Below, piece after piece: positions 2,693 through 6,097 of a DNA stretch of 6,097 nt. The stretch is from assembly GCA_021161545.1 (NCBI GenBank), contig JAGHAJ010000252.1, positions 1 through 6,097 of the forward strand, written 5' to 3'. Source of the DNA: Synergistota bacterium. GTDB taxonomy: Bacteria; Synergistota; JAGHAJ01. Under the pieces are notes generated by a model. It was given only the letters and a program-made list of their open reading frames with translations, had not been told where the DNA came from and ran no database searches. Made by a program: the position numbers and the translations under genes. Position 1 is the first letter of the stretch; every line of letters begins with the position of its first letter.

Positions 2693-3706
2693 TTAAACTC
2701 GCAGTAGGAGTTTCTTTGCATCTTCAAGGGTCTTTATGTCGAATATAGCGAGTGCCAGCTCATCTATCTTACTAACAGGCGCATTACTCAGAAGTGTTTC
2801 CATCTCCCTGTCTATGCTTCCAAACTTGCGAATCAATAACTGCCTCACCAACTCCACCTTGCCCGTCTTCATACCTTCTTTCATGCCCTCTTTCATGCCC
2901 TCTTTTATGCCTTTCTTCAGCCCTCTTTCTATACCTTCCTTCAATCCCTTCTCCATACCTATCTTTTCTGCTGTCGTCACAAACGGCACCTTCTTCACCT
3001 CCTCAAACTTGACTATCTCCTCGTGAAATCTTCTATCATATCCCTTAGGTAAAGATATCAACCAATCAATAAAAGTGTAAAGCAACAACACATCTTCCCT
3101 GGTATATCCCTTGTCATACAATGCCTTCACCAGACTTACCTTCCATAAAAGCCTCTTTTCCACATCCTTCTTTGTCTCCATCTCCCTTAAGTGGGCAAGC
3201 ACTATCACCGAAAATGGGTTCTTATCTCCCTCAAGCTCCTGCTCTTTCCCCCTATAGTCTAATATCTTTACCACGGGAAAGTGGAACAGGTGGTGAAATC
3301 CCCACCTCCTGTATTCGTATGTGTCCTGTCTGAAGTTAAGGTTGTCATCTGCCAATATTGCTAAACTCACCACATTTGCGTTGTACCTGTCGAGTATCCT
3401 GTGGTTGTATGTGAACATCCTCCTTGAAAAGTCTTGAGCTGCATATCCCTGAACCTCTATGTGTATGAGTAACCACTCTTCAGTGCCGTCTTTCAAGAAT
3501 ACCTTAACTAATATGTCTGCAAATCTCTTTCCTACCTCAGAGCGGCTCGATATCTTCTGAAGCTCCTTGTCAAGGAACTCATAACCCTTGTTGAAGTCGA
3601 TGTCCTTCTCTATCTCAGGAAAGAAGAATAATAGAAACTCCCTGAAGTACTTTACAACTGCATCCTTCCAGACTGCATCACTCTTTATCCTCTTCACCTC
3701 CTGCAT
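2693..3706 (-). CDS. Rpn-family PD-(D/E)XK nuclease / putative transposase with DUF4351-like C-terminus
   Basis: This is an intact 337-residue protein. The N-terminal nuclease core shows SDAVWKDAVVKYFREFLLFFFP (9-30), then RFADILVKVF (61-70) and WLLIHIEVQG (78-87). D64 and E84-x-Q86 fit the catalytic acidic residues of the Rpn/PDDEXK_2 family, members of which are reported to cut DNA and promote RecA-independent recombination. NHRILDRYNANVVSLAILADD (101-121) continues the family pattern. Residues 250-281 are eight GxxK/E-type tetrapeptides, probably a helix or coiled coil, and 284-337 match the short DUF4351-like tail. The ATG at 3706 has only weak upstream SD; the best SD-like string, AGGAGGTGA, lies inside codons 2-5, so initiation may be unusual. 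Direct repeats flank the gene on both sides, and a broken ATPase lies beyond one of them, so it sits in a rearranged locus. The nuclease family call is firm; whether it mobilises DNA here is not shown. Confidence 0.92.
   Translation of the reverse strand: MQEVKRIKSDAVWKDAVVKYFREFLLFFFPEIEKDIDFNKGYEFLDKELQKISSRSEVGKRFADILVKVFLKDGTEEWLLIHIEVQGYAAQDFSRRMFTYNHRILDRYNANVVSLAILADDNLNFRQDTYEYRRWGFHHLFHFPVVKILDYRGKEQELEGDKNPFSVIVLAHLREMETKKDVEKRLLWKVSLVKALYDKGYTREDVLLLYTFIDWLISLPKGYDRRFHEEIVKFEEVKKVPFVTTAEKIGMEKGLKEGIERGLKKGIKEGMKEGMKEGMKTGKVELVRQLLIRKFGSIDREMETLLSNAPVSKIDELALAIFDIKTLEDAKKLLLRV
2864..2959 (-). repeat. In-frame tandem 12-bp repeat inside the Rpn-type gene
   Basis: Eight 12-base units encode G-(M/L/I)-(K/E)-(E/K/R) tetrapeptides (residues 250-281). 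The units nearest the 3' end of the gene are nearly identical (GMKE repeated), while those farther upstream have diverged. Such linkers between the nuclease core and the DUF4351-like tail are usual in this family and can change in unit number without breaking the frame. Confidence 0.85.
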
Positions 3707-3752: not shown

Positions 3753-3818
3753 GAATTCTTTTCCAATTGTATAACAATTAAGTTATTCATTTAGGGGCTG
3801 GCTTGATTGTGTACTACC
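3753..3818 (-). repeat. Direct repeat copy B, upstream of the Rpn-type gene
   Basis: This is the partner of 2577-2644 (see the shared blocks there). It lies between the Rpn-type gene and the stop codon of the 4Fe-4S gene and ends 7 bases from that stop. On the minus strand it reads into KEFQIIM before a stop, parallel to the KEFKDMI at the start of the ATPase pseudogene in copy A, so the similarity reaches the first codons of that gene. Confidence 0.7.
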
Positions 3819-3824
3819 TTTTTA

Positions 3825-4772
3825 TTACCTGTATTTCAAATATTCCTTTCTTTCACCGCTGTCAAATCCAAATGTTATTTTAATTGCATTTTGGGGGCAT
3901 ACATCTTGACAAGTAGTGCATAAAATACATTCTGTTGATAATATTCTCTTACCTTCATTTTTGTATTTTAAAAGCTCAATATCCATAGGGCAATTTTTTT
4001 CACATAAGTGACAATCAATACATTTACTGTTATCAATTGATACTTTTAATAATGAAAAACGAGATGTAAGCTTCTGGAGCACAGGTACAGGACAAACATA
4101 TTTGCAAAACGCTCTATTATCTTTAAGCAAAGCTGCTAAACTGATTCCAATAACATAATAAAAAATATTTCCAATAGCAAGCCAGTACACTTCGGTTATT
4201 GAATGGTTAAATATGTCTTTCGTTCCAATTATAAACCAAAAATATGATACTAATCCAAGGGAAAAAAAGAAATGTATATATCTAATAATTCCAAGATTAT
4301 GCAACCTTCCGCTTGTTTTTTTCCAGGGTAAAAGGTCTAATATCATGGCTGTCCAGCACGCCCAACCGCACCAGCCTCTACCAAATATCAGAGGCCCAAT
4401 AATCTTGGCAATAAAATAATGCAAGGTAGCTACTGCGAATACCCCAGCAAATAGATAAAAGAAGAATCCCTCGATCTGCATATTCTCATGCCGAATAAAT
4501 CCAACATATCCTAATATATACGCTCCTATAAGGAGTTGAGTAATTCTCCTACCCCAAAGAACGTATTTTTTAGGAAGTGCCCCACTTAAGAAAATGCCAA
4601 TAGCAAGAGAAGTCCCTAAATAGATGAAATTATAGATATAAAAAGATTTACCAGTGGCAAAATACCTCCAAAAGGCAACGCTGTAGAAGATAAATATGAA
4701 CAATAAAGGAAGTTTTATTGTGCTTAAACTTATGTTCCATTTGTTTTCATCTCTTTTAGGCAAAGTGTCCAT
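3825..4772 (-). CDS. NapH/NosR-like membrane 4Fe-4S ferredoxin-type protein
   Basis: This 315-residue integral membrane protein probably passes electrons between the quinone pool and a partner oxidoreductase. Hydrophobic helices are seen at about 20-37, 47-66, 77-93, 103-122, 165-183 and 195-216. GRGWCGWAC (131-139) and CKYVCP (223-228) are the Cys motifs typical of the NapH/NosR/CcoG group. The C-terminus holds two 4Fe-4S ferredoxin sites: C251, C254, C257, C261 and C282, C285, C288, C292, each followed by Pro. The ATG at 4772 is the first possible start after an in-frame TGA; AGGGG abuts it directly, so a TTG at codon 4 with 9-base spacing to AGGGG is an alternative. No partner (NapG, NosZ or another reductase) is in the window. 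The gene starts about 25 bases after a GTTAGGC site, so it could be a cassette passenger, but no attC-like element follows its 3' end. Electron acceptor unknown. Confidence 0.93.
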   Translation of the reverse strand: MDTLPKRDENKWNISLSTIKLPLLFIFIFYSVAFWRYFATGKSFYIYNFIYLGTSLAIGIFLSGALPKKYVLWGRRITQLLIGAYILGYVGFIRHENMQIEGFFFYLFAGVFAVATLHYFIAKIIGPLIFGRGWCGWACWTAMILDLLPWKKTSGRLHNLGIIRYIHFFFSLGLVSYFWFIIGTKDIFNHSITEVYWLAIGNIFYYVIGISLAALLKDNRAFCKYVCPVPVLQKLTSRFSLLKVSIDNSKCIDCHLCEKNCPMDIELLKYKNEGKRILSTECILCTTCQDVCPQNAIKITFGFDSGERKEYLKYR

Positions 4773-4797
4773 CCCCTGTCATTCCCGTCATATTTTC

Positions 4798-4885
4798 GCC
4801 TAACGTTCCCAGCATAAAAGAAGTTTTTGCGATGCAAAATTTGGGTGGGTGCCGTAAGGCACGAACCTTTTATGCTGTGTTAGGC
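4798..4885 (-). repeat. attC-like imperfect inverted repeat (GCCTAAC ... GTTAGGC)
   Basis: The 88-bp element is bounded by 7-bp arms GCCTAAC (4798-4804) and GTTAGGC (4879-4885), which fit the RYYYAAC and GTTRRRY simple sites of integron attC. Inside lie inner arms CAGCATAAAAG (4810-4820) and CTTTTATGCTG (4867-4877), 11 bp complementary. The unpaired spacers are 5 bases on one side and 1 on the other; canonical attC usually has similar spacers on both sides. The central part has its own two hairpins. Its position between two minus-strand genes, directly after the stop of one and before the start of the next, is that of a cassette recombination site. A transcription terminator or other palindromic element is the alternative. 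Confidence 0.6.
4825..4862. other. Two small hairpins inside the attC-like element
   Basis: TTTTGC/GCAAAA with a GAT loop (4825-4839) and GTGCC/GGCAC with a GTAA loop of the GNRA type (4849-4862) are both perfect. They sit in the centre of the larger inverted repeat, giving a branched fold when the strand is single. They resemble the variable terminal structures of long attC sites but could also form in RNA. Confidence 0.7.
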
Positions 4886-4897
4886 GACGGCCACGCA

Positions 4898-5377
4898 TCA
4901 TACCTCTCCCCTCCAGAGTATTTCATCAAATATCTCGTCTGGGTAAAGACCGATAACAGCCTTTTTCAACAGGAGTCTTTTGGTATTGGTATCCTTTTCA
5001 AGCAGATACTTTGTGATAGTTTGCTTTGGATCATTAGAACAGGAATCGCATATTTCTTTCGGGATCGCTCTTTTAAGAAAATCGATTGGCTTATCCTTGT
5101 AACCGTTTACATACCTCTTATGGGCTCTGTATGGGAATTTGGTAATGTTGCTCTCGATATAGAAATGCCAAATATCAAAATCTTTTATTCCTACGTTCGG
5201 ATTGAGATAATGGGAAGCTGCACCTTGGCATAAACATATTCCAACGAGTGAATTATGATAAGTCCTTGTCAGATGGGGGTTTCTTCTAAAGAAGTCCTCG
5301 TGCTCTCTTAATGCTAATCTTCTCAGCTCTTCTAAATCGTTCTTCGTAAGAGGGGTATATAATCTTCCTGCACTCAT
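4898..5377 (-). CDS. Small nucleotidyltransferase-like protein of a conserved uncharacterised family
   Basis: This is an intact 159-residue soluble protein with no signal peptide. CLCQGAASHYL (48-58) followed by GIKDFDIWHFY (63-73) and KPIDFLKR (96-103) fits the minimal nucleotidyltransferase pattern: a hG(S/A) turn, a D-x-D pair (D66, D68) and a third acid (D99). Proteins with the CQGAA...KDFDxW block are, as I recall, conserved hypotheticals of similar size. C48 and C50, and C110 and C113, give two Cys pairs that might bind metal or be incidental. AAGGTGG (5385-5391) with 7-base spacing supports the ATG at 5377. The start overlaps a 27-codon leader ORF by ATGA. GTTAGGC-type sites flank the gene on both sides, which suggests it moves as a cassette. 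The nucleotidyltransferase fold is an inference from motifs; the substrate, and any toxin or resistance role, are unknown. Confidence 0.85.
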   Translation of the reverse strand: MSAGRLYTPLTKNDLEELRRLALREHEDFFRRNPHLTRTYHNSLVGICLCQGAASHYLNPNVGIKDFDIWHFYIESNITKFPYRAHKRYVNGYKDKPIDFLKRAIPKEICDSCSNDPKQTITKYLLEKDTNTKRLLLKKAVIGLYPDEIFDEILWRGEV

Positions 5378-5457
5378 GACAATTCCACCTTGGGGCTGTC
5401 GCCTAACTCGTTTATATGCGAACTGTTTACATATACATCTTTTGTTGCTATGCTCAT
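5374..5457 (-). CDS. 27-residue leader ORF overlapping the cassette gene (ATGA)
   Basis: The ATG at 5457 is preceded by AAGGAGG (5464-5470) with six bases between, the strongest ribosome site in the window. The peptide starts MSIATKDVYVNS and ends SPKVELS. Its TGA overlaps the ATG of the nucleotidyltransferase-like gene, so ribosomes ending the leader could restart there. Codons 1-16 lie upstream of the GTTAGGC junction and 17-27 within the putative cassette, so the ORF looks like a fusion made by recombination. The layout resembles the short attI1 ORF of class 1 integrons, which raises translation of the first cassette. It could instead be the truncated 5' end of a gene interrupted at this point. 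Confidence 0.6.
   Translation of the reverse strand: MSIATKDVYVNSSHINELGDSPKVELS
5394..5407 (-). other. Single GTTAGGC core-like site at the 5' cassette boundary
   Basis: Minus-strand GTTAGGCGACAGCC matches the plus-strand GTTAGGCGACGGCC at 4879-4892 except for one base, and its first nine bases also match minus 4804-4796. No complementary GCCTAAC partner lies within 160 bases upstream, so unlike the 4798-4885 site it is a single core, as in attI or a secondary insertion site. Confidence 0.55.
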
Positions 5458-5470: not shown

Positions 5471-5512
5471 TTAAAATGTTATCAAGGTAGTGATGAACAC
5501 ACGAGCGATTTA

Positions 5513-5541
5513 ATTATTACACAGCTGGCAAAGGAGTTCAA
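5513..5541 (-). promoter_or_regulatory. Sigma-70-like promoter for the leader ORF and cassette gene
   Basis: Minus strand: -35 TTGAAC (5541-5536), a 17-base spacer, then -10 AATAAT (5518-5513, five of six to TATAAT). It lies after the hairpin that closes the upstream gene and about 55 bases before the leader ATG. It could act as the cassette promoter and read through to the 4Fe-4S gene. Confidence 0.6.
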
Positions 5542-5560
5542 GGATAAAGGTTAGGGTTTG

Positions 5561-5594: not shown

Positions 5595-6097
5595 TCAGTT
5601 CTTCAGGCTCTGGTTCATGATTTCTATGCCCTGCAGGTATTGTTCTTTTTTAAGGTAGTCTATGGCTTCCTTTGCCTGCTGTCTGGTGAGCTCTTTGGTG
5701 CTGGATATACCCCACTTCTGTTTTATGTATTCGTGCAGCATCTCCTCATAGTTGTTGGTCCTTGCTATTGTGTGCAGGAGCTTTATCTGGTTTGCTGTGA
5801 TTGGCTCTGTCTTTTCTTCTGTTTCTGTCTTTTCCTCTGGTTGTTCCACCTCCATGTCGAGGATTTCTGCTATAGCCCTGTTCTTTGCACGGGTCTCTGC
5901 CACTGTTGCCGTGTCGTGGTGGAGCCTCTCTGATGGCTCCATCTCCTTGGTGTTGCATACTCCGAGTGATGACACGAGTCTGCCGTTTTCGTCTGTGGCT
6001 CTGACTTCCACCATGTATGTGATGCTTCCGTCTGCTTCCTGATAGCTCTGGACATCCCATATCTCGAGGTTGATGTTGTAGAGCTTTGCCAGACTCA
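5595..6097 (-). CDS. Phage/plasmid-type protein resembling single-strand annealing or recombination proteins, 5' end outside the window
   Basis: 166 C-terminal residues are visible. The frame stays open to the window edge (SLAKLYNINLEIWDVQSYQE precedes an internal ATG at 6014), so the start lies beyond it. The N-terminal part has beta strands with MVEVRATDENGRLVSSLGVC and then a helix with the pattern TATVAETRAKNRAIAEILD, which I associate with phage Rad52/ERF-like and related proteins of mobile DNA. An acidic linker with repeated EEKTE follows, then a C-terminal helical domain, ITANQIKLLHTIARTNNYEE...STKELTRQQAKEAIDYL, of a kind found at the end of phage recombination and ssDNA-handling proteins. 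A GC hairpin follows the stop. The neighbouring cassette promoter lies just downstream on the same strand. The family resemblance is by pattern only; the exact function is not certain. Confidence 0.8.
   Translation of the reverse strand, partial: SLAKLYNINLEIWDVQSYQEADGSITYMVEVRATDENGRLVSSLGVCNTKEMEPSERLHHDTATVAETRAKNRAIAEILDMEVEQPEEKTETEEKTEPITANQIKLLHTIARTNNYEEMLHEYIKQKWGISSTKELTRQQAKEAIDYLKKEQYLQGIEIMNQSLKN

Follow-up and report, generated by a model that had tools for sequence, protein, structure and literature searches.

Integron cassettes which lack an integrase are common (PMC9024848, PMC9668308), and archaeal metagenome-assembled genomes (MAGs) also contain integrons, mostly without an integrase (PMC9668308). 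Among attC sites the first extrahelical base has been called absolutely conserved (PMC2727003). The choice of strand is set by the extrahelical bases, although the spacer can impose polarity once these are gone, and deletion of these bases costs approximately sixfold in efficiency; recombination is lowered but not abolished (PMC2727003).

We analysed a stretch of 6,097 nucleotides (here called the window), a contig from the genome of a Synergistota bacterium. In it we found a single gene with a core site at its 5' end and an attC-like site at its 3' end, all in one shared orientation, as in an integron cassette. We consider that this is probably an orphan cassette with a single attC and no integrase, whose mobilisation would have taken place in the past or in trans. 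The features of the locus are:

4804-5406, minus strand: gene cassette of 603 bp bounded by the presumed exchange points (G|TTAGGC), with core sites at 5401-5407 and 4798-4804, the gene between them and the attC-like site at its 3' end

5401-5407, minus strand: 5' core site GTTAGGC (R' type), with extended complementarity (GTTAGGCGACAGCC) to the R'' side of the 3' site

4898-5377, minus strand: cassette gene, 159 aa, predicted nucleotidyltransferase fold, with its ATG 30 nt downstream of the core and AAGGTGG upstream

4798-4885, minus strand: attC-like site with R'' GCCTAAC (4885-4879), R' GTTAGGC (4804-4798), the spacer GGAAC, the arms L'' CAGCATAAAAG and L' CTTTTATGCTG, and a branched terminal structure with two hairpins

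4798-4804, minus strand: 3' core site GTTAGGC(GA), with the ATG of the next gene 32 nt behind it at 4772

3825-4772, minus strand: NapH/MauN-like membrane ferredoxin gene, directly following the second core site at a distance of 32 nt

5374-5457, minus strand: 27-codon open reading frame (ORF), read from the sequence, with a strong AGGAGG ahead of it, which spans the 5' core and overlaps the start of the cassette gene (ATGA)

The first-pass annotation had described three copies of one 9-mer at the boundaries of the gene. Three exact copies of GTTAGGCGA were found at 4796-4804 (minus strand), 4879-4887 (plus strand) and 5399-5407 (minus strand), agreeing base for base with the positions it had given. 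By a simple expectation the window should contain approximately 0.05 exact copies; with one mismatch allowed 0.69 copies are expected, and three were reached in 9 of 200 shuffles. The minus-strand order which had been read was borne out (core site 5407-5401, gene 5377-4898, palindrome 4885-4798, closing core site), as was the cassette length of 603 bp, which runs from T 5406 to G 4804. The 3' core site is presumed to be the start of the following unit as well. At 13 of 14 nt the 5' end of the cassette can pair with its own R'' (4879-4892/5394-5407, an inverted repeat), which counts in favour of a cassette, since circularisation requires such ends. When the 5' end was tested against R'' by shuffling, this was significant for the window only (p = 0.007) and not for either of two archaeal relatives taken singly (L049 and L050, see below).

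The imperfect palindrome at 4798-4885 lies immediately 3' of the 159-aa gene, and the 88-bp inverted repeat which had been reported there is real, with a branched interior. Its ends fit the complementary R boxes expected of attC (RYYYAAC/GTTRRRY, 50-150 nt apart): GCCTAAC and GTTAGGC pair at 7 of 7 positions across 88 bp. Next to the R boxes, as expected of attC, the L''/L' arms form an inner stem, here of 11 bp and perfect. The central spacers are asymmetric (5 nt vs 1 nt), rightly described earlier as unusual, and the 1-nt side is shorter than in all 22 of our reference attC sites. The spacer is unpaired, as in attC, with a G beside the AAC of R' on the bottom strand (GCCTAAC-G), and the nucleotide adjoining R' is the usual one (CGTTAGGC; compared with PMC2727003). 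Two or three extrahelical bases are expected on the L'' arm of an attC and the 11-bp L stem of the window has none, so we term this site attC-like, or atypical, and not a classical attC. As DNA it folds at −26.0 kcal/mol on the plus strand (the bottom strand of the cassette) vs −23.7 kcal/mol on the minus strand, with z at approximately −6.6 on both strands and none of 200 shuffles folding as well. A descriptor of RYYYAAC/GTTRRRY ends, with at most one R mismatch and an inner stem of at least 8 bp, matched the window at 4798-4885 only and matched nothing in 300 shuffled windows. The window site was also the sole match in 131,579 bases of loci from the same genome, which partly overlap and cover the neighbourhoods of 30 of its 53 GTTAGGC copies.

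We built a covariance model (R1) from 22 real attC sites (alignment A2), taken from class 1 integron plasmids (the aadA1 and aadB attC) and from cassette arrays in IMG/VR contigs. The stems of A2 covary strongly (54 two-sided changes vs 20 in shuffles). It should be noted that GCCTAAC..GTTAGGC ends are over-represented in the reference set, most of whose sites were found by that pattern. The attC covariance check on both strands which the first-pass annotation had proposed gave a match at 4797-4886 on the minus strand (20.9 bits, E = 1.9e−5, filters off) vs 15.8 bits on the opposite strand of the site; the strand of the gene is thus the better one, which is the orientation expected of a cassette. 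No other match in the window passed an E of 1. The score was carried almost wholly by the R boxes, and the L helix of the model was skipped in the alignment; in the reference sites the L stem has a one-base asymmetry, the extrahelical base. For comparison, typical attC sites scored approximately 33-71 bits and a plasmid attC, from the ereA cassette region, scored 16.4 bits. By this test the window site is an attC, but an outlying one.

There is no integrase gene in the window, as had been noted, and a search for intI in the bacterium's own genome (82% complete) found no integron integrase, which is likely to be absent from it. Two proteins of this genome (290 and 294 aa) matched TIGR02249 below the cut-off, both without the middle region of the profile. 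One of them lies beside hslVU, a neighbourhood which marks it as XerC-like, and the integrase-like proteins of the genome were of the XerC/XerD types only. Six genomes which carry relatives of the cassette gene gave no TIGR02249 match above the cut-off. An intI with the integrase-specific extra domain, which a complete integron should have, was therefore not among our findings. With no integron integrase found, R1 matching in the cassette orientation and a core site preceding two archaeal relatives of the gene, the earlier name of integrase-less cassette is the right one.

A DNA similarity search of the same genome gave no further copy of the site. A scan of this genome for CTAAC..GTTAG gave 12 matches vs 26 in the reversed control, using a spacing range which left out the window site, and a scan with R1 returned nothing but also missed the window's own site, and hence says little. 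The absence of related GTTAGGC-bounded units elsewhere had been named beforehand as a point against a cassette, and this point holds, as none were found as far as tested. The 6.1-kb contig has one attC site, where a CALIN is defined by at least two attC sites within 4 kb.

The cassette adjoins phage-like and other mobile-looking genes. It is possible that the NapH/MauN-like gene is the gene of a second cassette; the descriptor scan found no attC-like site after its stop. On the other side, the 27-codon ORF at 5374-5457 may be a leader like the attI1 ORF or a gene truncated by the cassette, and it had no match in phage records. The phage-like gene at 5595-6095, whose relatives were sought in viral contigs for an empty site, had none there. 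A short dispersed repeat of 35-48 nt is present in the window at 5495-5546 and 2570-2604 in inverted orientation, with further copies on five contigs of the same genome (C120, C101, C156, C264 and C257), which supports the assignment of the window contig to this genome. Similar direct repeats (GGGGCTG...GATTGTRTACTACC, at 2618-2646 and 3795-3819) lie on either side of an Rpn-type nuclease/transposase gene (2693-3706), which gives it the look of an inserted unit.

Relatives of the cassette gene were found at 38-69% identity in Pyrohabitans, Aenigmatarchaeota, Thorarchaeota, Bacteroidales, one further bacterium and Gemmatimonadaceae, and at 33% identity on Methylobacterium plasmids; IMG/VR and phage records contained none. 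The genomes with relatives are all metagenome bins, in which single contigs are possibly misplaced. Of 185 genomes of the window's own phylum 2 contain the gene, as does 1 among 227 in the phylum to which the Thorarchaeota genome (L052) belongs. A conserved syntenic position would have counted against a mobile unit, and we found no conserved syntenic locus and a gene which is sporadic across phyla. In the proposed search for the unit in different surroundings, relatives of the gene were seen in unrelated surroundings, two of them with a core site. This distribution suggests that the nucleotidyltransferase-like gene travels between bacteria and archaea.

The two relatives with a core site are those of Pyrohabitans (L049, core GTTAGACGAC, 30 nt before the ATG) and Aenigmatarchaeota (L050, core GTTAGGTGAC, 32 nt before the ATG), the distance in the window being 30 nt. 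Between the window, L049 and L050, the 30 nt after the core are identical at 15-19 of 30 positions (50-63%) and the 60 nt before the core at 13-19 of 60 positions (22-32%). The 3' regions of L049, L050 and a third relative (L051) contained no foldable site (z = +0.4, −1.0 and −0.1) and no match to R1, and we do not claim that these archaeal 3' regions are related to attC. In L049 (5708-6576) the relative lies within an 854-bp block at the 3' end of argB, between 15-bp direct repeats (AAGATAACGCCGTAA). The exact empty junction of this block is found in L485, and L484 is also without the block. The block-free junction in L485 shows that this region of L049 moves, though not at cassette boundaries.

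One form of the orphan-cassette explanation, which differs from it only in present activity, is that the locus is a fully decayed integron remnant whose site no integrase can recombine. We regard this as a real but rather doubtful possibility. It would fit with the single site, the lack of an integrase, the loss of the 3' site in the relatives and the lack of an attC after the next gene, but the intact R boxes, the match of the 5' end to R'' at 13 of 14 nt and the perfect stem argue against a long decay.

We also scanned viral contigs for an interior motif (CCCAAATTT..AAACTTC). The matches were mostly due to chance, and attC-like ends were found in one IMG/VR contig only (L203). This contig has two attC-like sites, at 33-105 and approximately 418-484, with perfect 10-bp stems and without extrahelical bases, which enclose a one-gene unit of 310 bp with ends complementary at 18 of 20 positions. 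R1 detected neither of the two sites, and sites of this type may therefore form a subtype which is missed by models of classical attC. We would put forward, as an unlikely extension, that the window and L203 share an undescribed attC subclass with a perfect L stem, no extrahelical bases and one very short spacer side. Environmental integrases for which the spacer alone decides the strand would act on this subclass, and genes like the nucleotidyltransferase-like one would be carried by it between bacteria and archaea. Five other IMG/VR contigs (L081, L086, L125, L131 and L075) contain long cassette arrays, in which the attC sites number up to a dozen or more; these are either virus-borne cassettes or bacterial contigs mis-sorted as viral.

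The first-pass annotation had allowed for a different element with similar ends, and this part of its reading has become the less likely one. Such an element, for example a single-strand transposon with hairpin ends or a non-autonomous element which relies on a host tyrosine recombinase such as XerC/D, would have arrived at RYYYAAC/GTTRRRY ends by convergence. The perfect L stem without the extrahelical bases of the L box would suit it, as would the fact that neither excision nor an empty-site allele was found for the window, and that the integrase-like proteins identified in the genome are all of the XerC/XerD types. The block in L049, with its 15-bp repeats and its clean empty site in L485, also moves at a junction which is not G|TT. 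However, core, gene and palindrome stand in the order and orientation of a cassette, R1 matches the site, the same core precedes two relatives, and in L203 sites of the same build bracket a one-gene unit of 310 bp; we consider this explanation improbable. A palindrome which serves as a transcription terminator or RNA structure, with three merely coincidental 9-mers, is extremely unlikely: the palindrome does lie between two same-strand genes and folds strongly, but it is followed by no T run and has no Rfam match, the third 9-mer is found at the opposite end of the gene, precisely in the place of a core site, and such a site occurred in none of 300 shuffled windows.

The 159-aa protein encoded by the cassette belongs to no Pfam, NCBIfam, PHROG or PADLOC family. 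An AlphaFold2 model was made from seven sequences (pLDDT 86), and its structural neighbours were nearly all nucleotidyltransferases of the Pol-beta type, with ANT(4'') foremost (Foldseek E = 9e−4; Z = 6.8, rmsd 4.3 over 113 residues). Invariant among the seven sequences are G52, K65-D66-F67-D68 and D99, and the catalytic pattern hG[GS]..D-x-[DE]...D is matched save for GAA where GS is usual. The model indicates that the protein is likely to be kin to the Pol-beta nucleotidyltransferases, a kinship which we claim at the level of the fold only, as the Z values are middling. The protein is a putative enzyme.

If the unit is an orphan integron cassette, an integron integrase, whether formerly present or provided in trans, would bind the folded bottom strand of attC (the plus strand of the window). 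Strand exchange at G|TTAGGC would then excise or insert a 603-bp circle with ends sharing the core, and loss of the cassette would leave an empty junction in which the flanking G is fused to TTAGGCGAAAATATG. The cassette probably arrived with at least one further unit, given that its 3' core continues as GTTAGGCGA before another gene. Since no integrase was found in the local lineage, the cassette would presumably stay in place until the cell acquires one. We infer both the mobility by IntI and the present immobility of the cassette.

Among described systems, the locus resembles CALINs and single attC sites (IntegronFinder, PMC9024848) in having one gene between cores, a correctly oriented 3' attC and no integrase nearby, but its one attC-like site is under the two-site threshold of a CALIN and has an L stem without extrahelical bases. 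Like archaeal and environmental integrons (Ghaly et al. 2022, PMC9668308), which are mostly integrase-less, it is MAG-borne and carries a cassette gene common to archaea and bacteria. Unlike in those integrons (PMC9668308), the archaeal relatives here keep the 5' core without a foldable attC, and the genome of the window is bacterial. As an isolated cassette away from an integrase and beside a phage-like gene, it is also similar to the attG-inserted cassettes outside integrons of Loot et al. 2024, in so far as these are described where cited in PMC12901181. It differs from that description in that the 3' junction of the window is continued by a complete GTTAGGCGA core, and this points to the remnant of an array more than to a single insertion at a GTT target. 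The encoded protein shares its predicted fold and the G..D-x-D...D pattern (G52, D66, D68 and D99) with Pol-beta-type nucleotidyltransferases (ANT(4''), PDB 6un8 and 1kny; CCA-adding enzymes; GrpB), but at only 4-17% identity, with Z of at most 6.8 and with GAA in place of GS. The cassette of the window is a known kind of object which carries an unclassified gene of the nucleotidyltransferase fold. For a bacterial class which is represented by one genome in the set compared, it is an added case of an integrase-less cassette, one which carries an uncharacterised enzyme family, and its attC-like site, without the features thought necessary for strand choice, is a natural substrate for probing how strict those rules are.
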